Assembly (NCBI GenBank): GCA_947650285.1
Contig: CANTFL010000167.1
Span: 1-64,000 of the forward strand
Direction: 5' to 3'
DNA from: Hyaloperonospora brassicae
Lineage: Eukaryota > Oomycota > Peronosporomycetes > Peronosporales > Peronosporaceae
Length of the DNA stretch: 64,000 nucleotides
The translations under genes were made by a program, and so were the position numbers. This document shows positions 4,313 through 64,000 of the stretch, in pieces. How positions within the stretch are numbered: position 1 is the first letter of the stretch; every line of letters begins with the position of its first letter. The notes under the pieces are model-generated. The model saw only the letters and a program-made list of their open reading frames with translations, was not told the DNA's origin and did no database searches.

Positions 4313-4777
4313 TGTAGTGGGGCACGCTCTTACCATATTACTGATAAGACTTTGTGTTGATAGAACACAAGGCTGCATTCTCCCGACGTCACGTAAACGT
4401 AGCCTGAGGAAGCGCGAGAAAATAAACAGAGCTAGGGGAGATTTTTAAGGGGCCATGGAGAACTGTATTCAATGTATTTAATTTTATTTTAATAAGCCAT
4501 CTTTGTCTACATCTAACTATATAAACCTACAATCTCGTATGTGCGTTTCTTTCTCACCACCCATTGCGCGCGCCCAGCAGCGATTGGTAGTAAACTTGGA
4601 TTATGTACCGTGTTTCATCTTTCAAGAAGTGGAGCACTCAAGAATATTACCCTCGAGGGTAAATTCTGCCAAGATCACCTCTTCTCGAGTAACATTGATT
4701 GATTAGTATCTATGTAAATACTATGCAAAAATCAATACATTCGTATCAATTTTATGTAACGGTCTCACCCTGTTACA
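4313..4777 (+). mobile_element. Solo LTR with 5-bp target duplication
   Basis: The 465-bp unit begins TGTAGTGGGGCA and ends CTGTTACA. It is flanked by the perfect direct repeat AGCGC (4308-4312 and 4778-4782). No internal coding region remains, so it is a solo LTR left by LTR-LTR recombination. A diverged copy in the opposite orientation lies at 39086-39548. It shares the CACCACYCATTGCGCGCG and GCGATTGGT core with the chromovirus LTRs in this window, so the families are related. Confidence 0.85.
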
Positions 4778-5043
4778 AGCGCAGTCACTGCCAGAAGAGG
4801 GGATGCAGCTTGGGAAGCCTATCATTGGGAAGTGCTCGCGTCAAGACGCACAAGGGTAACTGCGCGCAGAAGATGGAACGTCCATGCCCATCCGCACCAG
4901 TCATGACGTTGTTGAGATATTGGCAGCAGATCATCATCACCATCGAGTAACAATTTCTGTGGAAACATGCTACTTCAACGGAGAGCAGTCGTCACAAAGT
5001 TAACCCAGTCATTTTGTACGCACCGCGAGCGGCACGTGGTGTC

Positions 5044-5458
5044 TGTAACGGGGCACACCCTTGCCTGAACTTAACGCAAGGGTATCGTGCATCGACAAGC
5101 GTACACGAGGCAACCGAGGAAGCGGTAGGTAAGACAGAGGCAACACTGTCTTACGGAAAAGTAGAACAGTTATATTAATATAATTAAGTCTTTTAACCAC
5201 TGTCTCTCTGTTTGACTTAAATTAATTATACTAATCTAACTGAATGTATGACGACGTCTGCTCACCACTCATTGCGCGCGTCTTGCGGCGATTGGTGGGT
5301 TGATATCGTCAAGATATCAACCAATGAGCAGACTCTTTGGTCGACCCATCAATATCACCACTATTGGTGATATTGTTAAAATAATATTCAACGTAATATT
5401 CTTTATTGTCATTATCTCTTCAAATGACAATTTCCATGTAACGGGCTGCCCCGTTACA
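5044..5458 (-). repeat. Chromovirus 3' LTR
   Basis: TG...CA bounded, 415 bp, identical to the LTR at 12658-13072 except for four substitutions. It holds nested perfect stems, e.g. 5298-5307 with 5313-5322 (10 bp), 5351-5359 with 5366-5374 (9 bp) and 5405-5413 with 5423-5431 (9 bp). Confidence 0.95.
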
Positions 5459-5472
5459 TCACCCCCCCTAAA
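5459..5472 (-). other. Polypurine tract of chromovirus
   Basis: On the minus strand a G-rich run (TTTAGGGGGGGTGA type) directly precedes the 3' LTR. The second copy has the equivalent run at 61740-61752. The position fits the plus-strand primer of LTR elements. Confidence 0.7.
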
Positions 5473-5594
5473 TGATAGTCACCGTGTGACTATCAAAAAT
5501 ATGACGGCTACCCGTTAAGCACCATTGGGACAGGGAGAACTTGTTGGGTCCGTTCCATTCACTTTCCACCCGACCTTGCATAGTTAACAGGTCT

Positions 5595-7190
5595 ATGCGG
5601 GGTGACTCAAGACACGCACAGCCCGCTGCTGTGCCAGCCTCTGCGACAGACGATTCGTCGTCTGCTGCTCGTTCTCCGCCTGCAGCAACAGGTGCTGCAG
5701 GTGCACGCGGTATCACGCCGCGTGCGCATGATGACCCTGACATAGAGGTCATCTATTCTGGCGGGTCAGACGTGTCTGACTCGGAAAAGCCTTTGGAGGC
5801 ATCGCGTTCACCTGCGATGCCTCATTCATCCACTACACTGCCGGACGTACGGACTCGTTACATGCGTCACAGTCTGTTCGGCAGTGATGATGAGTCTGAT
5901 GATGAGTATGATTGCTCATCACCGCGATCAACTCGTGCTCCTTCGCACGAGCGACTTGACGATGGTGCAAGCCATCGTCATACTGACAACCGTGGTACCG
6001 ACAAGGGTACCACTGTGAAGCGTGATGAGCTGAAGCCGTGGCGTTTGCCTGAACGGCTCATCAATGGCTTGTCTCACGAGACAAGCCGACACCATCGAAT
6101 AACCTAATTCGATGCGACTGAGCTTCACGGCTTGGATCCCAGCGCGAGTAACTTTTGCGCTGAAGAAGATTTTTATCTCGATGTCTTCCTTAGACATCGA
6201 TGGTACAACGGCAACCAAAAGCGTAACAAGGCCTCGCTTTTAGCTGCGTGGAACGCGTTCGTTTAAAACGTAAAGAATTTTGGACGAGAAGGGTGGCTCA
6301 AGAAACTCGAGGCGACACGCCTCAGGTTCGAAAGGCGAACACCAACCGGTGCAAGGTACCGGTTGCACTGTTTGTCGAGTGAGTCAGACATTCCTTGCAT
6401 CATATGGGGAGACCCTTGTGCGAGTAGTGTTGACAACTCGCAGCGTGCATCTAGGAATGTGTATTCCCTAGATTCGCCCTGGGGAAGGGCACACATCTCG
6501 AGTGAGATGCGGGACGCGGTTGCAAATTTGCAATCCGTCTACAAGCGCCAGAAGCGCGTGTTTACCGATGGGCCCCAGGACCAATCGGATAAGTCTCGTC
6601 ATACTGGTGGACGAGACCGGGCACATCCATCATCAGCTGGGAGCGGGGCTCCCAGCTGTTCCAAGAAGATGGATACCCCCGCCACTGGACGAGGTAGCTC
6701 GTCCTTCACCCTAAATCGTCACGGTGGTTCAAAATACGCTCCTCTAGAAAGCGTTGACCACCGTGCGAGTCCACCAAAGGATGTGGTGGAGGAGGAAAGA
6801 CCTCCACCAGACCCCCAGGCCCACCATCTCGACCCTTACGAGATGGATCGCGCAATCGACGAATTGCGCGATGATTTGACGCACGAGAGGAACAGGCGTT
6901 ACGACCTGTCTGATTCCTTGCAGAATCACCGCAAGGAACACGAGACGGAGCATGCGAAGCACCGCGCTGAGTATGCGGTCTCGCAGCTGCAGGTCGAGCG
7001 CGACGCCCGCTTCCTCGTTGGCGAGCTGGCGACAGCTCGCGGAGAGATCTCTCGTTTGAGTTCTGAGGTCTCTCATCTACGCGACCAGACGGATCGTCTG
7101 AAGCGCGAACGCAAGAACCTGATGGAGGTTCTTGAGCGTGGGGGCTATCTTCATCGGAAGAAGAAGGCTCGTACTGACAGTTCGGCCTGA
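5595..7190 (+). pseudogene. Antisense ORF of chromovirus, copy 1
   Basis: One plus-strand frame spans about 532 codons, broken only by TAA at 6105-6107 and TAA at 6264-6266. The N-terminal third is Ser/Asp-rich with acidic runs. A middle block after a DELKPWRLPE motif is well conserved with the copy at 61870-63473 and includes a WGDPCAS-type Cys motif and SPWGRAHIS. The C-terminal third is charged and likely coiled coil, ending in a KKKARTDSS-like basic tail. The first two thirds lie outside pol. The last third (from about 6560) overlaps the chromodomain and integrase linker on the other strand. I do not recognise the family. Antisense ORFs are known from some plant Gypsy elements, but whether this one is related is unknown. 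The start is the ATG at 5595, matching the second ATG of copy 2. Confidence 0.7.
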
Positions 7191-7539
7191 GCCTCCCCAC
7201 GTAAAACGTAGGATGCGTGCGCATCCTACGTGGCAATTCGAGTGTGTATGCATTGCCCTTTCGATGCAACACTCGAAATGGCCCAATGTACTTCGGCAGT
7301 AGTTTACTACTGCCGACACTAGTGACTGCATGTCCAGGTAAGTTTACCGTAGACAGTAGTACTAGGTCATTAACTTTAAATGAAAGAACATTTGCTCTTC
7401 CATTCTTGTCTACGTTTCGTTTCTGACGATCCACCGCATTTGCGATGGAGTCTTGAACGAAGTGGACTATCGCCTCTCGAGGAAGCAGGAAGTTCTCTGC
7501 TGACTCTTTGTTTTGTCTTTCAGTGCGCTTCGTGCGCAC
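6706..7539 (-). pseudogene. Integrase C-terminal tail and chromodomain region
   Basis: Early in this segment the GPY/F-like stretch [19 protein letters not shown] is followed by a PTFYVGRLR segment, typical of the integrase tail of chromoviruses. A long disordered Ser/Arg/Pro-rich linker of about 150 residues follows. A TGA at 6708-6706 stops the frame just before the chromodomain, whose core ([11 protein letters not shown]) remains readable downstream to about 6560. In the second copy (62845-64000) the same codon is not a stop and the chromodomain is continuous. The antisense ORF runs on the opposite strand across the linker and chromodomain. Confidence 0.85.
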
Positions 7540-7541
7540 TG

Positions 7542-9563
7542 CTAAGAGATTGTTCTCTTCTTCAGCGAGGTCGTCTTCTTCCTCTCTGGCATAATCTTTG
7601 ACGATGCTGAATATACCAGCATCGTCATCATCATCCGAGTCAGTATTAGCGTCGCCGCTATTATTGAGGAGATTTTCTTCCTCGATGTAGACCTGATCGA
7701 CATCGGTATACTACGTGACGACGTTAGCGTCGACACATGATGAGCAAGAGCTAAAACGGTTTCTGCTCGAGCGAGTCCCTCCCCCTTTATCCAAGAGTCA
7801 CTCTTTAGAAAGGTGGGCATACGTGGATGGCGTAAATCATTCACGTAAAGCGGTGTGTGCTGTGTCGAGACATGCACCGAATTGTTGATGGCGAATTCCA
7901 CCATCGGAAGGAATTCGCTCCAACTCGAAAACGAGTGGACGTGTCCTCGAAGCATCTCTTCGAGGACACGGTTCGCACGTTCCGTCTGACCATTTGTTTC
8001 GGGATGGTCAGAAGTGGACATCGTCAACCGTGTTCCGAGAGAACGGAACACGGATTGCCAAAATTCCGCCATGAACCGAGGGCCACGGTCGGATACGAGT
8101 TCACGGGGTAACCCATGGAGTCTAAAGACCGTGTCGAGAAAGACACGAGCACAACCTTGAGCCTTGATCGACTCGGTTACAGCAGCAAGATGGGCCATCT
8201 TGCTGAACCGGTCAAAAAACACAAGAATACCATTATTCTTGTGAGCGTCTTCGGGAAAACCGAAGACGAAGTCCATTGAAACGGACTGCCAGCACTCTGT
8301 CGGAATAGGCAGAGGTTGCAATGGTGCACGGGATGAAGGACTAGGCTTCACCCGTTGAAAAACCTCGCTAGCACGTATGTACTTGCGTACAAACTGATAC
8401 TGGCGTGACCAGTAAAAGTCACGACTTACCATGAGGTAAGTCTTTTCTCTCCCTCGATGACCACCTGTTGGGGCATCGTGACGCTCGTACATGATGCGCA
8501 ACCGCAAATCAGTATGAGCGGGGACGACGACACGAGGCGTGTCGCCGTCAACAACTGTATAATATAATAGTCCGTTGCGTGTCGTATACCGATCCGAGGA
8601 GGATCGGTACAAAGCCGGTAAATCTTTTAATGATTTACTGGATGGATTTAACAGATGATCCATTAATCGCAGAAGATCCTTATCTTCTGCGGATGCCTTT
8701 CGTATGTCGTCAAGTAAGCTTGACGACGGAACACTGGCTCTCAGTGTCGCAACCGTGGGCTTATCCTCACTGTTAGGTTGTGCGTCCGGCTCGAAATCGG
8801 ACCGGCGCAAAAGCGCATCAGCGACGACATTGAGTCGTCCTGGTTTATACTCCACGGAGAAGTTATACTCCGCGAAGAAAGATAGCCACCTCGCCATCCT
8901 TTGCGAGAGATGTGGGCTGTTTACGGCCGTGCGTAATGACGCATGGTCCGTGTAAATGATGAACGGTCTATCTCCCAAGAGATATACGCGAAACTTAGCC
9001 AGTGCGTACTTCATGGCAAGGAGTTCCTTGTCATGCACTGGGTAATTACGCTCAGCTGCTTGCAGCTGACGCGACTGATAACAGATGACGCGCTCCGCGC
9101 CATCTGCATCGAACTGCATTAACGCACAGCCGATTGCGAAATCGCTGGCGTCACAGACCACATGAAATGGTTTATCCTGATCTGCAATCGCCAAGATCGG
9201 CGATTGCATCAAGCTTTGCTTGGTACCCTCAAAGGAACGCTGTAACTCAGCGTTTCTGACCACTTGACATTTTTCTTGAGCAGACAAGAAATATGAACGG
9301 TCATCTCGGCGTAGTTGCGCGAGTACTTGTGCAAGTACGCCGATAGCCCAAGGAACTTCCTTAGTCCCTTGACATCGACTGACACTGGCCAGTCGGTGAT
9401 CGCCTTGATCTTTCGGGATCAGGGCGTACGCTGTGTTTACCCACGATGCACCCAAGAAGTAGTATTTCGCTAGCCGCGAATATACACTGCTTGAGGTTGG
9501 CGTACAACTTATGCTTGCGCATAAGTTGAAAAACCTGACGAACGTGAGTTCTGTGAACTTCAA
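7542..9563 (-). pseudogene. RNase H and integrase of chromovirus pol
   Basis: RNase H is marked by VCDASDFAIGCALMQ near 9160-9110 and ends near RLNVVADALLRR. The integrase core has the expected acidic residues in SMDFVFGFP (near 8265), SDRGPRF (near 8090) and TERANRVLEE (near 7990). In the preceding zinc-binding region the expected second pair of Cys is absent (RASEVFQR in place of a C-x2-C), so the HHCC finger is probably non-functional. The segment above about 9270 is out of the true pol frame because of a frameshift. Another frameshift near 7703-7712 separates it from the integrase tail. Confidence 0.9.
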
Positions 9564-11403
9564 CGTCCGTCTTTCCGTCTATATCCTGGCTATGGACGGA
9601 TACATCGTCGAAGTAACTCGGTGCGAAGTCTCGCACCGGTCTCAACAGATTTGTGACACATCTGTTGAATGTTGCAGGGGCATTGCTCATCCCCTGTGGC
9701 ATCACTAGCCACTCCCACAGCATACCGCTGGGGGTGCTCACTGCTGTGTACGGGATATCCTGTTCACGCATGAGGATCTGATAGAATCCATCCATCAGAT
9801 CCATGGACGAAAAGATGGTACTCTTTGACATACCATCTATGATGACGTCCTTCCTCGGTATCGGCGTCTGAGCCGGTACCGTTGCAGCATTCAACTTGTT
9901 GAATGCGTGCACTATCCGCCATCCTCCTGTGGCCTTTCGCACACAGAAGGTCGGAGAGCTGTGAGGGAATGTTGATTCCCTCACATGGCCCGCTGCTAAG
10001 CGATCGGCAAAGAACTTGTCGATCGCTAGTACTTGTTCACGAGGCAGTGGCCACTGCTTCATGACACAGTACTTCGAGCCCGGTCTTAGCTCGATCTCGT
10101 GTCGAGTGCCTTTGTCCTTAGGCAACTCGCAAGGTACGGATTCAGGGAATACGTCCTTGAATTCGATCAAATCCTTATACAAAGGATTTGCCTGAAGCGG
10201 CTCCCAGGATTGAGACGTGTATCGCTCAATCCGAGTCTTCTCATCGAGGACACTTTCGTCCATCGATGAGCTGCTGAGAACCCGTTCGTTCTCAGCAAAT
10301 ACTGTGGCCGACCGAATATCGGCCACATACTCATCCTCTGTGACGAGTATGCAGATCTGCTTGACTTTGCCACCACGCAGATCACGCAAGAACCGTTTCG
10401 GTTCTAGCGTTGGCAACTGAGTTATCTCCGAAGTCAACTTCGGAGGCACAATCAGATCAAGTGTATAAGCGCCTACACTTGATCCGTCATTGACCAAGAC
10501 GTTCAACGTCTCGATTTCTTCCTGGTAACTTGCTTCCACAGGTTGCTGAGGGCCTGATCCTTCAACAAGCGACTCTTGAGGAATTCCTTCCTCAAGCACG
10601 TGGGGAATTATTCCCTCGACGTCTTCTGACTGTGACTGTGCAACCACAGTCAGGCACCGATCCTCTACGTTCGACTCTCCAGTCGACCTAGGATGTCCAT
10701 GTTGCCCTTTGAAGGCAACAGGTTTATTTTGTCTAAGATGCTGCCCGCTAGGCATGCATCCATGTCCCGGTCCACTCGACTTCTTCGAGTGGTGGACCTT
10801 CGGCGCAGCCTGTACTTGTGTACAGCCGCTGGGAGCTTGCCCCACAGTGTAGTGATCAACTACACTGTGACCTTGTGCAGTCGTGCTAACGACCGTACCG
10901 CAAGTGAGGCCATCGCACTCACTCGCAGTACATTTACACGCTTGTGGACGCTCCAAGATGTTCATCAGATGGCCATCTGATGAACAAGCGGCAGGCATCT
11001 TCACGGATCGATGCTGCCAGCTCACTCTTGGCTCGTACCTTCTGAGCCAAGGTAATCCCAGGATGACATCAAATTTGTCATCCAGATCCAATACGATGAA
11101 GTCATCATCGTACTGTTCGCCCTCTAACGTGTAGTGGATTCCTACTACACGTTTCTCAACGGTAATCGATGCGCCTGTTGCAAGGCGCACCGTCATCCTC
11201 GTGAGGGGAATGTCGCGCTCAACGAACTTGAGCCTACGACCCTCTAGTGACTGGCGTCGAACAAAGTTGTTCGACGCCCCACAGTCTACTAGGGCACGAA
11301 GTGACAAATCATTTGTCGCTTCCAACTTCAAGGTGATGAGCGAAACGTCATTACCAGGTGCAGAGACACACAATGATTGTGTATCTGGAGCAACTTTCGT
11401 CAA
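9361..11403 (-). pseudogene. Protease and reverse transcriptase of chromovirus pol
   Basis: The aspartic protease active site reads LVDCGASNNF near 11286. The reverse transcriptase fingers and palm follow, with the catalytic box SYFDDVSVHS at about 9603-9614. The frame is lost near 9411-9421 by a one-base change and regained near 9255-9275, so the RT connection/thumb is garbled. Upstream of the first candidate start the frame stays open and overlaps the end of gag in the -1 frame. The ancestral element could therefore have used -1 frameshifting or a now broken single ORF. Confidence 0.9.
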
Positions 11404-11453
11404 GAGATTTGCAAATTCTCTTGAGGTTGCTGGATCAGTAGGGCGCTCCGCCC

Positions 11454-12607
11454 CTACTGACCCCGACCATTTTTTGATGGTCCGTCTCGCTGTTGCGGTT
11501 TCGCAACAGCGCTGGACCCACGCCCATTGCCCTTTCTGGCAAATGGTCGTCCATTTCGCTCAGTACTGTTTGGTACTGGGCGTGGAGCACTACACTCATA
11601 TGCGTAGTGCCCTAACATCTGACAGCAATTGCACCTCTGGAATCGCTTGTTGTTCGAAGAGCGAGGTCTCTCGCTCTCAACATAGCAGAGGTCCATTGGT
11701 TCTGGACCTCCGATCTCTTGTCGTCTCGGTGGACGATAAGAGTTTGAGCTAGCATGAGCCTGTCTCATGCTAAAGTCTTCCTGTTCCGCGACTGATTTCG
11801 CTTCTTCAAGCGTATTTAGCTCTAGGCGGAACAGGTGGCTCCTGACGGGCCCTTCTGCGAGCCCTTGCATGAACACCGTAATCAACGTGTGTTCATTTAC
11901 CGGGTTGGCAGTTATACTAATCGCAAGGAGTCGTATATGTTGGGCGTAAGCGTGCACATCACGCTTACCCTGCTTGAGTTTCAGTAGCTCTGAACGAGAT
12001 CTGAACTCAGCGCGTGGCGGCTCAAACGTTTGTCTGAGCCGGGCCTTGAAGTCATCTAGCGACCTAAACACATTTGGGTCGCTACTCTCGAGCCCTAAGG
12101 CCCAAGTTTTGGCACGTCCTGCCAAGTGGGTTTGAGCAAATGCAAGTTTCATTTCCTCATCGTCGACAAGACGTGCCTTCAAGTCTCTGTCGAGTTCGAC
12201 GAACCACAATAACACAGAGTCCTCAGGGACTCCTCTGTACTTTGATATGTCAACCTTCATGACCTCGGGACGACGCGAATGTGTCGTCCTGCCCACAGCA
12301 GCATGGAATTGCTGCTGTCTCAACAGCTCTGTCTGTTGAGCACCGAGTTCTCTCAACTGCTCGGCCTGTTAAGAGCCTTGCTGGTGAAGCAAGGCTACTT
12401 TCTCCCTCTCGATGGCAAGTTTAATTGAATGAACTTGGCTATGGCGGCATGTTGTTGGTCTCTGTTGAGAGACTCCAACATGGCGCTAATAGCGACCTCG
12501 CCTACGGTAGAACTCATGCGTTCTACCGCACTCCATTCGATGTCACTCAAATAGTTACACCCCTCACGCATGGCGTGAAAGTTCTCCTCATCATCCAACA
12601 TGTTCAT
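11454..12607 (-). pseudogene. Chromovirus gag
   Basis: Gag starts at the ATG at 12607, about 36 bp inside the putative primer-binding site. It carries a retrotransposon gag domain (VDISKYRGVP... LAGRAKTWALGL) and a CCHC zinc knuckle CNCCQMLGHYAYEC near the C terminus. A frameshift near 12415 and an in-frame TAA at 12371-12369 break the N-terminal part. The frame from 12368 to 11454 is open. The knuckle would bind nucleic acid in the virus-like particle. Confidence 0.85.
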
Positions 12608-12642
12608 GGTGGATGATGTGGAGGTGGTCGCTGGAAGGACTA

Positions 12643-12655
12643 CAAAGTGCTACCA
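12643..12655 (-). other. Putative primer-binding site
   Basis: On the minus strand, two bases after the 5' LTR, TGGTAGCA occurs, complementary to a tRNA 3' end of the form TGCTACCA as in many initiator tRNA-Met. The match stops after about eight bases, so the tRNA identity is uncertain. Confidence 0.5.
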
Positions 12656-12657
12656 GG

Positions 12658-13072
12658 TGTAACGGGGCACACCCTTGCGTGAACTTAACGCAAGGGTATC
12701 GTGCACCGACAAGCGTACACGAGGCAACCGAGGAAGCGGTAGGTAAGACAGAGGCAACACTGTCTTAGGGAAAAGTAGAACAGTTATATTAATATATTTA
12801 AGTCTTTTAACCACTGTCTCTCTGTTTGACTTAAATTAATTATACTAATCTAACTGAATGTATGACGACGTCTGCTCACCACTCATTGCGCGCGTCTTGC
12901 GGCGATTGGTGGGTTGATATCGTCAAGATATCAACCAATGAGCAGACTCTTTGGTCGACCCATCAATATCACCACTATTGGTGATATTGTTAAAATAATA
13001 TTCAACGTAATATTCTTTATTGTCATTATCTCTTCAAATGACAATTTCCATGTAACGGGCTGCCCCGTTACA
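12658..13072 (-). repeat. Chromovirus 5' LTR
   Basis: 415 bp, TG...CA, four differences from the 3' LTR. It retains the perfect stem ACCCTTGCGT/ACGCAAGGGT near its outer end, which one substitution breaks in the other LTR. Confidence 0.95.
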
Positions 13073-13077
13073 GTGTC

Positions 13078-14890
13078 GGCTTGGTAACGATAGCAGTGGC
13101 TGTTCAAACGCAGCGGATGAAACACGCTCTTCTCTGGCTCACCCAGAGGCGAGACAGGTACGGGGCGGCGTGGAAATTTCGGACGTTTCGAGATGCTCGG
13201 TTTGACGCCTCTATCGCGATCACACCACTTAACCCTCTTCATTCTAGCAGTCAACAGAGCAAGATACGTGGTGCTAGGTTGCGGGCAGATATTTGTGCTT
13301 GGCTTCGACCGTCGGATATGGAGCATGAAGCCATACAAATTCGTCATCGTCGACAAATGCAAAGGCTATTCTCACAGATCACGTGCTGGCGGGACGGCGA
13401 CCGGCTAACGATTTAATTAGCGGAGCCGCTTCCTGCCCTTACCTGGGAGATAACGGCCGTGACCTGCCGGTGTTGGCCTACATATTCGTGGGCAGACAAC
13501 CCATGGCTCTGCGATGGTACCGGTCATCGGTTGTTGAGGACGAAATACGACCGCATCCGGCCGTGCTCGCTGGAAGAACTTGCGTTTGAGCGAAGCGTCC
13601 CAACAGCATACATTTGTCACGTCCTGTTGGCTGAGGGGGCGGCCAAGCACCACACGGACCGCAAACTTGGGCGCTGGGCTTTGGCAATTTTGATGGGTAG
13701 TCCTTCGTTGGCTATAGGCCGGACATTCGAGGTTCTACCCACTGTGACTCTACGACCCCCCCCCCCCGAAACTCCGGCTATCGTACGACTGGGTGCTGGA
13801 CGGACCTGGAGCAGTCCGAGGTGTGGCACGTACGCCGCCGGGTATGTCCTCACGGGGAATCGTGCTCAAGCAGGAGGCCGACGAAATTAATTGGACAGTC
13901 GACGACTCCGATATCATACCTCCGGAGTATGGCCACGATGTGGCCGTCCTCCGGAGCTCGCAACGGTCTCTCGTTCTGGTCTTGGATGCTCATCCGTCGA
14001 CCCACAGCTTTTCGTGGGATGCCTCACCGAACGTGGCGAATCGGCACGTATTGCGATACCTTAAGCGCCAGCCGTACTGCAAGGCGAAGACGGGGCTCGG
14101 CAAGGCATTAGAAGGTCTGCTCCAAAAGTTACAAACCTGTGCAGCCCGGGGTGACTGGCACTCAGCGGTTCTTCATCAAACACCGAAGCAGCTGTGGGGC
14201 CCCCAAAATGCGATAACGGAGTATCAAGTGTGGGTCTATTGCCGTCTGGTACTTCAACAGCCCAATTTATTCTTCCCGGGCAGGGAACTCGACACCAGTT
14301 GCCGCAGGCTGACCGTCTGCGCCGGTCACAAAGAGACACTGGAGCACATTTTCTGCTACTGTCCGGTGGCCCAGGGATGCTGGCAGGCGGTCCTGTCCTC
14401 GTAATTTGGGTCCGATGTGCGGCTGAATGACGTGAGTCAGTATGCGGGGAACTGCTTAGCACGACAGCCGCCGCCTCTGTCTAGGACACTGTTACAACGG
14501 CTGCAGCGGGCCTTTGGTGATACTGTGGAGGAATATATTGCTCAGTGGAAGCGCATATGGTGGATCCTCTGTTCCGTCTGTGTCTCGACTCTTTGGATAC
14601 AGCGCCGTCGGGCTGTTCACGAGCAGCGACAACTCTCACTTCTGGGCAGTGTCCACGAGTTTTGCTCTAACGGACTTCGGCAATTACGAGCGCTCTCGGC
14701 AAGAGAGCGCCGAACGCTACAATCCAGGGTGCAAGGCATTTGGCTATGGCAGTGCATTGAGTTACTCGATGACACCACTGCGCCTTCTAGAGCATCACAT
14801 CATGTGGTGAGTCACGTACAACCACCGGGCAATTCGACACCGGCGTTGCTAATCTGGCTTAGGGCATTCCAGAGGCCTTGTTTTCATTAA
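13078..14890 (+). pseudogene. LINE ORF2 C-terminal region
   Basis: Joined to 4981-5043, the frame reads continuously across the chromovirus insertion site (...APRAARGVGLVTIAVAV...). This resembles the post-RT part of a LINE reverse transcriptase. Further on, CAGHKETLEHIFCYCP (about 14319-14366) is the Cys/His zinc-binding motif typical of the C terminus of L1-like reverse transcriptases. It is followed by a Trp-rich KRIWWILCSVCVSTLWIQRRR segment. Frameshifts near 13420 and 13790 and a stop at 14404 break the protein. The catalytic RT domain is missing because of 5' truncation. Confidence 0.8.
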
Positions 14891-29516: not shown

Positions 29517-30679
29517 AATGGCGAAGAAGTTGCTGCGGCTGAAGGTCGTCAGCAGCGCAGGGCAGATGCCGGTCGCGAAAGGGCTGGCGCCCTGGAGGAG
29601 AAAGAAGAGGTCAAGGAAGAACCAAGGAACACGCAGGGCAAGCTGCTGGACCTTCTCACGGGCCTCACGGAGCGCATGGAGGCGTCGCGAGGGCGATCGG
29701 AGGAGAATGAGCGCTTGAAGGGCCATGAGTCCAGCGTTTTTGGTTCGGTGTTGGGGCAAGGCAAAGCAATGACCAGAGAGGCGTTGGATGTGTCGCCACC
29801 GAGGCGTGTGTCACCCGGCGTATCGCCATCAACGTACTTTGGTGCAAGACAGCCTGGATACGCTGGTGCAGCGGCCAAAGTTGAGATGGCGCAAGCGCCG
29901 CAACCAGTACTGCCTCAGCAATACGTGCCACCACCCATGTACCAGCCGGCGCCCCCACCACACATGGCACCAGGATTATAATACAATCGTGTGCCGGATA
30001 CGCGACAGAGGAAGCTGGGCATCCAACCTTTTGATGGCAAGGAATTGTATCAAGGTCTCGGAAGTGGGGTTTTATTGTGGGCAAGAGATTTGTAAGGCAG
30101 ATCAAGTTCGCGGAGCGAGCAAGTGGTTTCCAGTGGAGTTAAGACGTCAAGGTAGACGTGCTAGGGCACCACTTGACCGGTATGGCCGAACGATTTTACA
30201 ACCAACAGGTCGAGGGGTAATTTGAAGAACAGCCGACGCTAGAGCATGCGATGCAGCGTCTACTCCATACGTTTGCGACCAAGATAACTCCCGCACAAAG
30301 TATGAAGATTTTTACAGCTCCCAAGAATTACAAGCGAAGCTAGATGGATCATTACCTGTATTTGGTGGCGGTGAGTGAAGCGTGTGGAGGTGCCGACAAC
30401 CTAGTTCAAGACAACATTGTGCATTACGCCGACCCCAGTATGAGGGTGTCGATGTTGGCGAGGTTAAACCTCACGCGCATAGACTATTTGCGGCAGGCGG
30501 AAGAGCTTGCGCACTTCGCACAGTCGACCGAGATCGAACTGCGCGGGAAGAATATTGGAAAGGACGTGGTCAATACCGTCGAAAATGGACGCCGAGCCTA
30601 TCCCAAGACCCGAACGCACAATCGCAAGGACCGTCGAGATATGCGCACGTGCTACAAATGTGGAAACCAGGACATTTGA
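29508..30679 (+). pseudogene. Copia gag
   Basis: An ATG at 29508 lies inside the primer site and opens a 157-residue Glu/Arg-rich then Pro-rich segment. Stops near 29981 and frame changes follow. A zinc knuckle start CYKCGN at about 30650 is cut by a frameshift, its second half (KPGHLKIACP) lying in the frame at 30382-31305. Confidence 0.7.
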
Positions 30680-31305
30680 AGATAGCGTGCCCCGCGGGCA
30701 GTGCTGAGACAAGAGCGACGGATGATGTGGACTTCGCTCTGGCCATAGGCGGATCAAGTGTCAAGGAAGATTACTGGTTCCTCGGTAGCGGATCGAGTCG
30801 ACACCTAGTTAATGACGCTTCATTACTGGAAGAACTTGAGAAACACATCAGCAAGTGCGTCGCTGCGGATGGTGGACACCTGCGCATAACGATGCGTGGA
30901 AGTGCGACTATTGCTACGACAGTACTGGGTAAAAGAACCAAAGTGCGCTTGACGGATGTTTACTTCGCAAAAAACCTCGAGAGAAACATTAGTTCGTATG
31001 GACTATTGGAGAGTAAAGGATGTGGTATTTCATACCGGGGCGAGTACCGTGTGGTAGCCGCATTGGACGAAAAGCCAGCTGTTTTCGACGTGGGAATACA
31101 CAATAACGTGTTGGTCTTGCGTGCACAAAAATGCGAATTAGTTACGAAAAGAAGTGACGTGCTGATGTCAGCACTTGTACAACACGATGGGGACGTCGGA
31201 CAAGATGCGCAGGAAGGATCGCTGATGCACTTTCATAAACGCCTTGCGCATCTTAATTACGACACTGTAGTTAGGATGTCCAAGCATCCCGCATCAGAAA
31301 TATAG
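30680..31305 (+). pseudogene. Copia protease and GAG-pre-integrase domain
   Basis: The protease core reads WFLGSGSSRHLVND, where the family has an Asp in place of the first Gly of GSG. The catalytic aspartate is therefore lost. The downstream MHFHKRLAHLNYDTVVRM segment is the His-rich GAG-pre-integrase (zinc-binding) motif. A TAG at 31303-31305 ends the frame. Confidence 0.85.
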
Positions 31306-61348: not shown

Positions 61349-61739
61349 TGTAACGGGGCACACCCTTGCGTAACTTAACGCAAGGGATTTGGGTGCCCCG
61401 ACGGACGTACACGTGGCAAGCGAGGAAGCGTAGGTAGGGTATAAGTAGAACTGTTATATTAATAAAATTAAGTCTTTAAACTACTGTCTCTTCGTTTGAC
61501 TTAATTCAATTATACTAATATAACTGCATGTATGGTGACGTCTCGTCACCACTCATTGCGCGCGTCTTGCGGCGATTGGTGGGTTGATATCATCACGATA
61601 TCAACCAATGAACAGACCCTTTGGTCGACCCTTCAATATCACCGCTTTGGTGATATTGTTTAAAGAAAATCCATCTTTATATTCTTTATTGTCACTTTCC
61701 TTAAAGTGATAATTTCATGTAACGGGCTGCCCCGTTACA
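61349..61739 (-). repeat. 3' LTR of chromovirus copy 2
   Basis: 391 bp, TG...CA, clearly diverged from the 415-bp LTRs of copy 1. The stems at 61582-61591/61597-61606, 61635-61643/61649-61657 and 61688-61698/61703-61713 are kept. Confidence 0.92.
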
Positions 61740-61869
61740 TCACCCCCCTTAACTGATAGTCACCGTGTGACTATCGAAAATATGGAGGCCACCCGTTGGC
61801 CACCATTTGGACAGGGAGCACTTGTTGGGTCCGTTCCATTCACTTTCCGCTTGACCTCGCATAGTTAAC

Positions 61870-63473
61870 ATGTCTATGCGAGGTGACTCAAGACCCACAC
61901 AGCCTGGTGCTGTGCAAGCCTCTGCGGCAGACGCTTCGTCGTCTGCCGCCCCTTCTTCGCCTGCAGCAACAGGTGCTGCAGGTGCACGCGGTATCACACC
62001 GCGTGCGCACGATGACCCTGATGTAGAGGTCATCTACTCTGGCGAGTCAGACGTGTCTGACTCGGGCAATGCTCCAGAGGCGTCTCGCTCACCGGCGACG
62101 ACTCAGTATTCGCCAAGACCACTGCCGAACGAACGGACTCGTGATTTGCATCACAGTCTGTTCGGCAGTGATGACGATGATCAGGGTGGTGAGTTCTATT
62201 CTTCACCACCGCCGGCTCGTGCGTCTTCGCACGAGCGTGATGACGATGGCGCGAGCCGTCGTCAATCTGGGAGCCGTGGTACCGACAAGGGTACCACTGT
62301 GAAGCGTGATGAGTTGAAGCCGTGGCGTTTGCCCGAACAGCTCATCAATAGCCTGTCTCACGAGACAGGCCAACACTATCTATTCCCCTTTTCGATGCAA
62401 GCGAGCTTCACGGCTTGAGTTCCAGCGCGAAGAACTTTCGCGCTGAAGAAGATATTTATCTCGATGTCTTTCTTAGACATCGATGGTACAACGGCAACCA
62501 AAAGCGTGACAAAACATCGCTTTTGGCTGCGTGGAACGCGTTCATCCAAAACGTAAAGAATTTTGGACGAGAAGGGTGGCTAAAGAAACTTGAGGCGACA
62601 CGCCTCAGGTTCGAACGGCGAACGCCAACCGGTGCTAGGTACCGGTTGCATTGTTTATCTAGTGAGGCAGGCATTCCTTGCCTCACATGGGGAGACCCTT
62701 GTGCGAGTTGTGTTGACAACTCGCAGCGTGCACATAGGAATGTGTATTCCCTAGATTCACCCTGGGGAAGGGCACACATCTCGGCTGAGATGCGTGACGC
62801 GATTGCAAACTTGCAATCCGTCTACAAGCTCCTAGGGCGCGTGTTTACCGATGGGCCACAGGACTCATCGGATGGGTCTCGTCATACTGGCGGACGAGAC
62901 CTTCAACATCCATCAACAGCTGAGAGCGGGGCTCCCAGCTGTTCCAAATGGGTGGATACCCCCGCCACTGGACGAGGTAGCTCGTCCTTGATCCTGAATC
63001 GTCACGGTGATTCAAGATACGCTCCACTAGAAAGCGTTGATCACCGTGAGCATCCACCAAAGGATGTGGTGGAGGAGGAAAGACCTCCTCCAGATGATTC
63101 GGTTCACCATCTCGACCCTTACGAGATGGATCGCGCAATCGATGAATTGCGCGATGACTTGAAGCACGAGCGCGACCGGCGCTACGCTTTGACCGATACC
63201 GTGCGGAAGAACCGCAAGGGTCACGAGGCTGATCGGGCGAGGGATCGCGCCGATTATGCCACAGCGCAGCTCCAGGTCGAGCGGGATGTCCGCTCCCTAC
63301 TCGGCGAGCTGGCGACAGCTCGCGGAGAGATCTCTCGTTTGAGTTCTGAGGTCTCTCATCTACGCGACCAGACGGATCGTCTGAAGCGCGAACGCAAGAA
63401 CCTGATGGAGGTTCATAAGCGTGGGGGCTATCTTCATCGGAAGAAGAAGGCTTGTACTGACAGTACGACCTGA
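61870..63473 (+). pseudogene. Antisense ORF of chromovirus, copy 2
   Basis: Frame one runs 61870-62418; the remainder (about 62385-63473) is open in the next frame. Comparison with copy 1 shows one base missing here near 62384-62393, so the ancestral ORF was continuous, about 530 residues. The two stops of copy 1 are absent. The conserved middle block reads EEDIYLDVFLRHRWYNGNQK, FGREGWLKKLEATRLRF and WGDPCASCVDNSQR, with two Cys spaced C-x2-C. The C terminus is coiled-coil-like ([20 protein letters not shown]). Function unknown. Confidence 0.75.
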
Positions 63474-64000
63474 GCCTCCCCACGTAAAACGTAGGATGCG
63501 TGCGCATCCTACGTGGAAATTCGAGTGTGTATGCATTGCCCTTTCGATGCAACACTCGAAATGGCCCAATGTATTTCGGCAGTAGTTTACTACTGCCGAC
63601 ACTAGTGACTGCATGTCCAGGTAAGTTTACCGTTGACAGTAGTACTAGGTCGTTAACCTTAAATGAAAGAACATTTGCTCTTCCATTCTTGTCTGCGTTC
63701 CGTTTCTGACGGTCCACCGCATTTGCGGTGGAGTCCTGAACGAAACGGACTACCGCTTCTCGAGTCAGCAGGAAGTTCTCTGCTGACTCTTTGTTTTGTT
63801 TGGCAGTGCGCTTCGTGCGCACTGCTAAGAGGTTCTTCTCTTCTTCAGCGAGGTTGTCTTCTTCCTCGCTGACATAATCGTTGGCGATGCTGAATATACC
63901 AGCATCGTCATCATAATCCGAATCAATAATAGCGTCGTCGCTATTATTGAGATGATCTTCTTCATCGATGTCGACTTGATCGACATCGGCATCATACGTG
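62845..64000 (-). CDS. Chromovirus integrase tail with chromodomain, partial
   Basis: The frame is open from the window edge (63999) to the stop at 62845, at least 384 residues. In order it has an acidic linker ([11 protein letters not shown]), the integrase-tail GPY/F motif ([18 protein letters not shown]), a long disordered linker and a chromodomain ([19 protein letters not shown], about 62970-62910) with the aromatic residues expected for methyl-lysine binding. It probably targets integration to chromatin. The opposite strand carries the antisense ORF across the linker and chromodomain. Confidence 0.85.

Follow-up and report, generated by a model that had tools for sequence, protein, structure and literature searches.

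Genome-wide hairpin tiling in a Hyaloperonospora brassicae chromovirus family, probably maintained by selection and possibly a shield against silencing

In the plant-parasitic downy mildew Hyaloperonospora brassicae, a high-copy chromovirus family is tiled throughout with short perfect hairpins, and selection very probably maintains this self-folding. Three observations lead us to that conclusion: synonymous sites in stems are protected, a young lineage avoids losing stems, and longer stems go with lower GC. As for purpose, we favour the inference that the folded state serves as a shield; the full explanation, selected genome-wide self-folding as a predicted shield against silencing, stands in our view just short of an even chance. 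The relevant features of the window (the whole 64,000-nucleotide stretch of DNA analysed here) are as follows.

5044..13072, minus strand: whole hairpin-tiled chromovirus copy, 8029 bp; 110 inverted repeats against 5.7 when shuffled
5039-5043 and 13073-13077: 5-bp target-site duplication GTGTC bracketing the chromovirus, borders read directly
12658..13072, minus strand: 5' LTR, carries hairpins; 99.0% identity with the 3' LTR
5044..5458, minus strand: 3' LTR, carries hairpins
11454..12356, minus strand: gag remnant frame (Retrotrans_gag, Ty3_capsid)
9361..11403, minus strand: pol part 1, aspartic protease and reverse transcriptase
7542..9563, minus strand: pol part 2, RNase H and integrase (H2C2, rve)
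6706..7539, minus strand: pol part 3, SH3_Tf2-1 domain
5541..7190, plus strand: long antisense ORF remnants (ORFs 5541-6107 and 6363-7190)
13051..13072, no strand: terminal hairpin, arms 9, loop 4, flush with the element border
7941..7969, no strand: example internal hairpin in pol, arms 11, loop 7
5796..5823, no strand: example internal hairpin in the antisense ORF, arms 10, loop 8
61349..64000, minus strand: second hairpin-tiled element (locus L024), 87% identical over this stretch

The second element runs past the window end, to contig position about 69326. The family resembles Ty3/gypsy chromoviruses in its LTRs, 5-bp duplication, gag-pol, protease-RT-RNase H-integrase order and chromodomain, and differs from them in its dense hairpin tiling throughout and in an antisense ORF of 539 aa with homologues. 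This ORF has that length in copy L017, and no Pfam family matched it. The chromodomain (PF00385) lies at the integrase C-terminus in L017 (pol 1606-1656) and was also found in the second window element; it was not recognised in pol part 3 of the broken window copy (6706..7539). For the flanks, described earlier as LINE halves, three ORFs on the right-hand side of the chromovirus were compared with Pfam and matched no family.

Inverted repeats were counted as perfect arms of at least 7 bp with loops of 3-16. The window copy holds 13.7/kb, and its dinucleotide shuffles averaged 5.7 ± 2.0 repeats (maximum 9 among 30); for arms of at least 9 bp the counts were 56 against 0.33. The second related element (61347 to the window end) contains 44 (16.6/kb), and the remaining 53,317 bases of the window contain 49 (0.92/kb; mean of 10 shuffles, 38.1). 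Codon-preserving shuffles, 60 for each region, were made on one young copy, L017: gag has 19 inverted repeats against 1.4 shuffled, pol 74 against 4.8, the pol/antisense overlap 11 against 1.4 and the antisense ORF 21 against 1.7. Overall, dinucleotide shuffles are exceeded about 19-fold and codon-preserving ones 8- to 15-fold. On this excess we reject codon usage, base composition and chance as makers of the hairpins and leave them practically no probability; the young copy has an ordinary GC of 52%, and the remainder of the window lies near expectation.

The preliminary description had reported a density beyond chance that held in LTRs, gag, pol and antisense ORF alike and stopped at the element borders, and all of this was borne out. 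Each part is densely tiled, the eight example arm pairs are all perfect, the last hairpin terminates exactly at 13072, and the closest hairpins outside lie at 4352-4370 and 14690-14710. Its spacing of one hairpin every 30-40 bp was overstated for arms of at least 7 bp: non-overlapping hairpins number 106-114 in the 8029 bp of the window copy, a spacing of about 70-76 bp, and 136-142 in L017, where one comes about every 56-59 bp. Discrete perfect hairpins occupy about 41% of the young copy, where about 140 run through LTRs, gag, pol and antisense gene, and 32% of the window copy.

The typical hairpin has a stem mostly of 8-10 bp, a loop mostly of 4-6, a median span of 24 nt and a stability of about -13 kcal/mol. 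The excess peaks at arms of 8-10 bp, few arms exceed 12, and pairing past the stem ends is near background. With loops up to 16, the window copy and L017 have no perfect arm longer than 14 bp, so that the long dsRNA foldback of an inverted-repeat siRNA locus was not encountered. The arms are perfect, with no preference for G-U. Arm length falls with GC (rho -0.35, P = 3 × 10−5; shuffles +0.02), which suggests that selection senses stability. An anticorrelation of -0.21 to -0.40 between arm and loop was given no weight, since stems that by chance extend inwards may produce it. Inverted repeats appear evenly spread in L017 (7-11 per 500 nt); fixed spacing or periodicity was rejected, as the non-overlapping hairpins sit like random hard rods (gap CV 1.03 against 0.99, L017). 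At 1000 nt, hairpins look more evenly placed than at random in the near-identical young copies L017 (P = 0.015) and L013 (P = 0.019). In L012 and the window copy they do not. The 3- and 4-nt loops share no common motif by eye, and the primer-binding region is not especially open (top 29% of windows). On the sense strand, loops are enriched in A in L017 and L012 (0.318 against 0.249 elsewhere in L017) and more weakly so in the window copy; this hints at a role for the sense RNA.

All 16 fetched copies of the family are hairpin-dense (12.2-17.7/kb, flanks included). As to decay with copy age, copies whose LTRs are more alike have a higher density of arms of at least 9 bp (rho 0.60, P = 0.018, 15 copies), and for arms of at least 7 bp no such correlation is seen (rho 0.34, P = 0.22); L011 and L021, with no LTR-LTR match, were left out of this correlation. 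Two other gypsy loci, about 40% diverged, carry a weaker form of the tiling, and two loci of one further gypsy family in the same genome lack the hairpins. Thirty Copia loci average about 1.5/kb against about 0.8 shuffled. The claim that the hairpins are special to the chromovirus thus survives in part: elsewhere in the window the count lies close to that of shuffles, while the second window element and, more weakly, the two gypsy loci share them. Copia elements, described earlier as free of the pattern, have at most a mild excess. Positions conserved between families were not found: at four loci from other gypsy families the stems of L017 are 42-45% paired, with similar values in the two hairpin-rich and the two hairpin-free loci, and hairpin centres are co-located in 4/19 and 3/14 cases (expected 2.2 and 1.6). 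The hairpin-rich locus L058 folds overall no better than the hairpin-free gypsy loci (7.8% against 8.4-8.5%). No related DNA was confirmed in viral or prokaryote collections.

Comparison of copies lets selection be read. Shared polymorphism at fourfold sites occurs at 4/189 sites in stems, 10/55 in loops and 53/612 elsewhere (stem against loop, P = 8 × 10−5), and paired sites in general are less variable than unpaired ones. On stems defined in the outgroup L021, 5 stem pairs were lost on the young L017 branch and 67 on the decayed window-copy branch (branch lengths about 1.9% and 5.4%; loss contrast P = 3.5 × 10−5). We did not count the kinds of substitution along the branch of the window copy as evidence of selection, since that branch decays as if unconstrained. 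Pair gains are mostly 1 per hairpin and at most 3, except for one L021 hairpin with 6. Broken pairs arose 39 times by transition and 31 times otherwise; Watson-Crick replacements are rare (9/1258 pairs), and two shared compensations retain a G-T intermediate in the sense reading.

Folding is equal on the two strands. In 66 windows of 120 nt, z was -5.70 for sense and -5.73 for antisense, with an energy difference of -0.15 kcal/mol (P = 0.79). G-U pairs make up 5.1% of sense and 5.8% of antisense pairs, against 9.9% in MS2, 15.1% in 23S rRNA and 12.3% in one shuffle. Shared stem changes went from A-T to G-T 10 times and to A-C 12 times. Equal folding of the strands, with G-U no better tolerated than A-C, implies that sense RNA alone explains the tiling poorly. 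Of the two causes offered by the preliminary description, selection for folding is supported, its folded RNA genome is right only in part, given the strand symmetry and G-T changes no commoner than A-C, and template switching as maintainer is not supported, given the mostly single-point gains, the scarce compensations and the stem losses of the decayed branch.

We propose that the family evolved a genome-wide self-folding sequence kept by natural selection, and that its folded transcripts (sense, antisense or both), perhaps also its cDNA, would pair poorly with one another and with small RNAs, which would leave less dsRNA and fewer open target sites for the oomycete silencing machinery. That shielding from hybridisation-based silencing is the main cause of the self-folding is a tentative claim, somewhat below an even chance. 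A bolder version, which we consider rather unlikely, is a position-free, strand-symmetric code to fold everywhere, with small-RNA-sized hairpins on both strands as a counter-defence. Under such a code, hairpins near small-RNA length and a set density would be selected, sense, antisense and small RNAs would self-fold into poor substrates for silencing, and related families of the genome, in which the code is strong, weak or absent, would reflect an evolving counter-defence written over coding sequence.

A shield would fit what is published for Phytophthora, rather than for H. brassicae: LTR elements there have matching small RNAs of 21 and 25/26 nt, which for two gypsy elements lie throughout and in both orientations (PMC3804510, PMC3522703). 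It would also fit work on RNA viruses in which innate sensors recognised transcripts less when these were structured (PMC3950689). On the opposite side, published P. infestans material describes inverted repeats, as annotated there, as strong small-RNA sources. In the chromovirus, 8-mer sites more than 10% open make up 5.3% of sense and 6.5% of antisense sites, against 13-14% in 4 shuffles and 16% in window 20-28 kb. Those more than 50% open make up 0.5% in antisense and 1.0% in sense, the latter no rarer than in shuffles (0.8-1.3%), which speaks against a shield. About 32% of 25-nt windows have a foldback of at least 5 bp (7% shuffled), so a shield at the siRNA level, if any, would be incomplete. 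Further observations against a shield are the A-rich sense loops, the two compensations with a sense G-T intermediate, the two hairpin-free loci of another gypsy family, and L058, which folds no better than they do.

The hairpins might instead function in the sense RNA within the particle, as dispersed packaging, dimerisation or compaction elements read by Gag/NC, with antisense symmetry a by-product of favouring perfect Watson-Crick stems. A sub-threshold zinc-knuckle match in the L017 Gag (22.4 bits against the Pfam curated cut-off of 27), hairpins alike in size and stability, A-rich sense loops and the 7-11 repeats per 500 nt, though spaced mostly like random hard rods, would suit such a role. 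We nevertheless hold it fairly unlikely: in sense RNA a change from A-T to G-T costs 0.38 kcal/mol and one to A-C 4.05, yet the two are shared about equally, the strands fold alike, and the short loops lack a common motif. Those equal counts are fitted better by DNA costs, both high (G-T 2.14, A-C 3.36 kcal/mol, from A-T pairs), and folding with DNA parameters likewise gives a large excess, the same on both strands (-28.4 sense and -28.5 antisense per 120 nt, against -13.9 for one shuffle). Selection on single-stranded DNA, in which cDNA hairpins would aid strand transfer, protection or integration during reverse transcription, is still distinctly improbable: Ty3-type reverse transcription is not known to need hairpins at such density, polymerases usually stall at strong stems, and another gypsy family has two loci that lack hairpins.

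Palindromes could also be built and repaired without selection, if the element's reverse transcriptase or host polymerases switched templates or corrected quasi-palindromes; such a process is a known creator and mender of hairpins (PMC8794818). Perfect arms without a G-U preference and the 6 simultaneous gains in the L021 hairpin accord with it. We would expect correction, however, to copy about as often as revert, and only 9 replacements stand against the 39 transition and 31 other breaks; other gains are mostly single, fourfold sites set stems and loops strongly apart, stems are longer where GC is lower as though energy were sensed, and the excess is greatest for arms of 8-10 bp, with few above 12 and near-background pairing beyond the stem. 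As sole cause it is very improbable, and as maintainer it is disfavoured, as clustered multi-base arm changes were encountered only in the L021 case. Template-switch hairpins share short perfect hairpins with the chromovirus, which differs in its mostly single-point gains, few arm-to-arm copies and visible selection.

The nearest known kind is the genome-scale ordered RNA structure (GORS) of viruses. Passages of PMC7642675 describe several hundred consecutive stem-loops along coding genomes, energies beyond shuffled controls, less variable paired sites and positions poorly conserved between relatives; the excess is given as about 15% for SARS-CoV-2 and 7.5-10.7% for HCV, with 23.4% the highest quoted. 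Viral GORS is also linked to persistence or to a shielding from RNA sensors. The chromovirus shares the excess along most of its genome (22/22 windows of 350 nt in L017, 27-68%, and 22/22 in the window copy, 15-53%), the lower variability of paired sites and the poor conservation of pairings between related families. Its excess is 48-49% in two young copies, a value obtained with shuffling and programs that differ from those of the published figures. Unlike GORS viruses, it is an LTR retrotransposon with short perfect stems, strand-equal and depleted in G-U. By our own, unpublished expectation, a single-stranded RNA genome should fold better in sense and accept G-U; the chromovirus does neither, and in the MS2 control the sense-antisense difference was only a trend (-1.49 kcal/mol, P = 0.23). 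The chromovirus folds more strongly than MS2, a well-known structured phage RNA: by the same script, MS2 coding RNA has a 30% excess, 2.8 against about 18 perfect inverted repeats per kb, z of -2.7 against -5.4 to -5.7, and the higher G-U share given above.

Arguments for genome-scale RNA structure come mainly from RNA viruses, in which its purpose is still debated. The chromovirus, an integrated element, displays it strongly and offers many recent copies that allow selection to be followed at single sites, relatives in the genome that lack the hairpins and can serve as controls, and a strand symmetry not predicted by a sense-RNA explanation. The family makes the purpose of such structure directly testable with small-RNA and probing data. 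A literature search, judged by titles and the starts of abstracts, found no description of hairpin-tiled retrotransposons. Forsdyke is said to have proposed a stem-loop ('fold') pressure for retroviral and other DNA. It would resemble the chromovirus in a stem-loop potential that both strands share and that costs freedom in coding; fold pressure is a statistical tendency, whereas the chromovirus has discrete perfect hairpins over a large part of a young copy.

Eight inverted repeats had been cited as examples in the preliminary description of the element, a Ty3/gypsy chromovirus on the minus strand of the window, and all eight were perfect. Counting every inverted repeat with arms of at least 7 bp and a loop of 3-16, we found 110 in this window copy (5044-13072; 13.7 per kb), compared with 5.7 ± 2.0 in dinucleotide shuffles, and 56 with arms of at least 9 compared with 0.33. 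The part of a second, related element that lies between 61347 and the window end held 44 (16.6 per kb), and the remaining 53,317 bases held 49 (0.92 per kb; shuffle mean 38.1, n = 10). Coding sequence had been described as accommodated to the pattern, and codon-preserving shuffles of L017, a young copy of the family, bear this out: 19 inverted repeats were observed in gag (1.4 shuffled), 74 in pol (4.8), 11 in the overlap of pol with an antisense ORF (1.4), and 21 in the antisense-only part (1.7). Each of the two L017 LTRs (391 bp each) held seven. The features referred to are:

12658-13072 and 5044-5458, minus strand: LTRs of the window copy, 99.0% alike
both flanks of the window copy: target duplication, 5-bp GTGTC
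L017:5989-7605, minus strand, and window 5541-7190 (+): antisense ORF, 539 aa in L017, overlapping the end of pol

The chromovirus encodes gag, protease, RT, RNase H, integrase, and SH3 domains, with a chromodomain present in L017 and in the second window element. The closest named RT relatives were from Peronospora matthiolae (86%) and Pythium oligandrum (79%). A 1.5-kb pol piece gave 2078 first-look candidates in the 100.56-Mb genome, of which 40 were scored; each of these was either the element itself or 93-94% identical. The antisense ORF matched no Pfam family, and it has at least 12 homologues at 32-87% identity, including three that are 43-48% identical across 92-96% and two P. matthiolae proteins (40% and 32%). 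Given these homologues, the element probably carries an antisense gene. Two bases past the 5' LTR, a TGG-starting stretch (12638-12655, minus strand) resembles a tRNA primer-binding site; the 44-nt leader of L017 contained no hairpin of at least 7 bp. Separately, a Copia-type Pol_BBD domain at 30382-31305 (+) points to a further retroelement in the window. The window also encodes a pre-rRNA-processing protein that matches one annotated for Hyaloperonospora brassicae at 100% identity with 97% coverage, in line with that downy mildew as its source.

All 16 chromovirus copies fetched, including flanks, carried 12.2-17.7 inverted repeats per kb, and three kinase loci carried 0.7-2.3. The Copia element of the window had been called free of the pattern by inspection, which needs qualifying for Copia loci of the genome: among 30 loci (L025-L054) cut out of 151 matches, densities ranged from 0 to 3.9 per kb, with 26 below 2 and four above 3 (L026, L027, L028, and L036, at 3-3.9). 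Their mean of ~1.5 per kb compared with ~0.8 shuffled, and 14 of the 30 had at least 0.5 per kb with arms of at least 9 (shuffles ~0.05), so the Copia excess is mild. Among four other gypsy loci, which differ from the chromovirus by ~40% at the DNA level, L058 and L059 reached 6.4 and 8.6 per kb, and L060 and L061, 96.5% alike and thus one family, had none. A 1.2-kb piece, L064, held 11 inverted repeats versus 1.3 expected; it was taken from a contig on which a further L059-kind copy is listed, the kind being set by equal integrase score and ORF length for that copy rather than for the piece. Chromovirus stem pairs still paired at 42-45% in the four gypsy loci, about equally in hairpin-rich and hairpin-free ones. 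The hairpins of L058 and L059 sit at positions other than those of the chromovirus family, with only 4/19 and 3/14 centres coinciding (2.2 and 1.6 expected). The trait is therefore hairpin density, rather than individual hairpins.

Measured in 350-nt windows, the folding excess was 48% in L017, 49% in L012 (a second young copy), 40% in the window copy, and 34% in L021, an outgroup copy. It was 30% in the structured RNA phage MS2, 15% in L059, 8% in L058, 8-9% in hairpin-free gypsy loci, 4-5% in two Copia elements, and -2% in a control stretch at 20-28 kb of the window. The hairpin density of L058 thus does not lift its overall folding beyond the level of the hairpin-free loci. With a like measure, a coronavirus study quotes ~15% for SARS-CoV-2, 7.5-10.7% for HCV, and 23.4% as its highest value (PMC7642675); the shuffling was not done in quite the same way, and in our analysis MS2 by itself is above that maximum.

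Loop sizes peaked at 4-6 nt, and hairpins spanned a median of 24 nt (interquartile ~22-28). The largest proportional excess of arms over shuffles began at 8 bp; L017 had 27-39 arms per length at 8 to 10 bp, a sharp drop above 10, and few at 12-14. Outside the stem, pairing was near background, save a modest excess just beyond the first mismatch. Longer arms were AT-richer (arm length versus GC, rho -0.35 in L017, -0.37 in L012, and -0.24 in the window copy; +0.02 in shuffles), and L017 hairpin energies centred at about -12.7 kcal/mol (sd 3.1). We read these two features together as selection on stem stability rather than on arm identity.

Selection was assessed across 15 copies, restricted to columns in which 12 or more of them could be read, with stems defined in an outgroup copy outside those 15, either L021 or, LTRs excluded, the window copy. 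With window-copy stems, variants common to at least two copies fell at 32 of 1670 stem sites versus 330 of 5646 others; fixed differences numbered 14 versus 234, and singletons, which are mostly newer, 137 versus 677. Among fourfold sites within gag and pol, shared variants occurred at 4/189 stem, 10/55 loop, and 53/612 other sites (stem versus loop P = 8e-5), and the singleton deficit in stems was not significant (15/189 versus 84/667, P = 0.09), both P values being guides because the copies are akin to each other. L021-defined stems gave 4/182, 9/46, and 54/617 for shared variants. Selection for self-folding, one of the two causes initially offered, is thus well supported. The window copy itself lost 67 L021-defined stem pairs, versus 5 on the L017 branch; given branch lengths of ~5.4% and ~1.9% from pairwise distances, it evolved as if unconstrained. 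Its gag and pol frames are broken and its branch is long, yet its LTRs remain 99.0% alike; it may be the offspring of an already decayed template, or its LTRs may have been converted.

The other cause offered, template switching, is described as able to create and repair hairpins (PMC8794818), but we would expect this process to copy one arm onto the other often, and such copying is rare in this family. Watson-Crick replacements in at least two copies affected 9 of 1258 pairs, next to 39 transition breaks and 31 other breaks, and for four of the nine a one-step intermediate survives in some copy. Most hairpins with stem gains added a single pair, and with one exception none added more than three, which argues against this process as the maintainer of the pattern. 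The exception, a hairpin in L021, gained six pairs at once as compared with the other copies, in a region that differs from them throughout, and is a candidate template-switch or recombination event.

The proposal of a folded RNA genome stands only in part, because sense genomic RNA alone fits poorly as the target. In 66 windows of 120 nt with 12 shuffles each, the predicted excess of folding was nearly equal on both strands: z was -5.70 sense and -5.73 antisense in L017 (difference -0.15 kcal/mol, P = 0.79), with L012 in agreement, -3.96 and -4.14 in the window copy, and +0.24 at 20-28 kb. Strand controls were imperfect, their shuffle-corrected sense-antisense differences having the expected direction but small size (MS2 -1.49, P = 0.23; 16S -2.25, P = 0.043; 23S -1.32, P = 0.049). 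Predicted G-U pairs made up 5.1% of sense and 5.8% of antisense pairs (MS2 9.9%, 23S rRNA 15.1%, one shuffle 12.3%). Single mismatches within L017 stems were G-T 17, A-C 14, and other 15 under a looser rule, and 3, 6, and 8 under a stricter one. Lineage changes at A-T pairs gave 10 G-T and 12 A-C, although their mean sense-RNA costs are 0.38 and 4.05 kcal/mol (DNA costs 2.14 and 3.36); those at G-C pairs gave 9 and 8. Sense-strand loops are enriched in A (P for purine excess: L017, 0.004; L012, 0.018; window copy, 0.58), which counts against full strand symmetry. A better fit as target is given by the two complementary RNAs together, or by DNA in single-stranded form.

As to mechanism, the hairpins may serve packaging or may act at the cDNA stage. 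We put first a possible shield against hybridisation, in which folded strands would pair slowly. Phytophthora small RNAs are reported to match LTR elements (PMC3804510, PMC3522703): one of these two studies gives 24-30-nt RNAs at 3.5-5.7 times the 18-23-nt ones for LTR elements, and the other gives 21-nt RNAs at ~2x the 25/26-nt ones, with small RNAs mapped over two gypsy elements in sense and antisense orientation. In keeping with such a shield, 8-mer sites more than 10% open made up 5-6.5% of each strand, compared with ~13-14% for shuffled sequence, although on the sense strand those more than 50% open did not decrease (1.0% versus 0.8-1.3% in shuffles).
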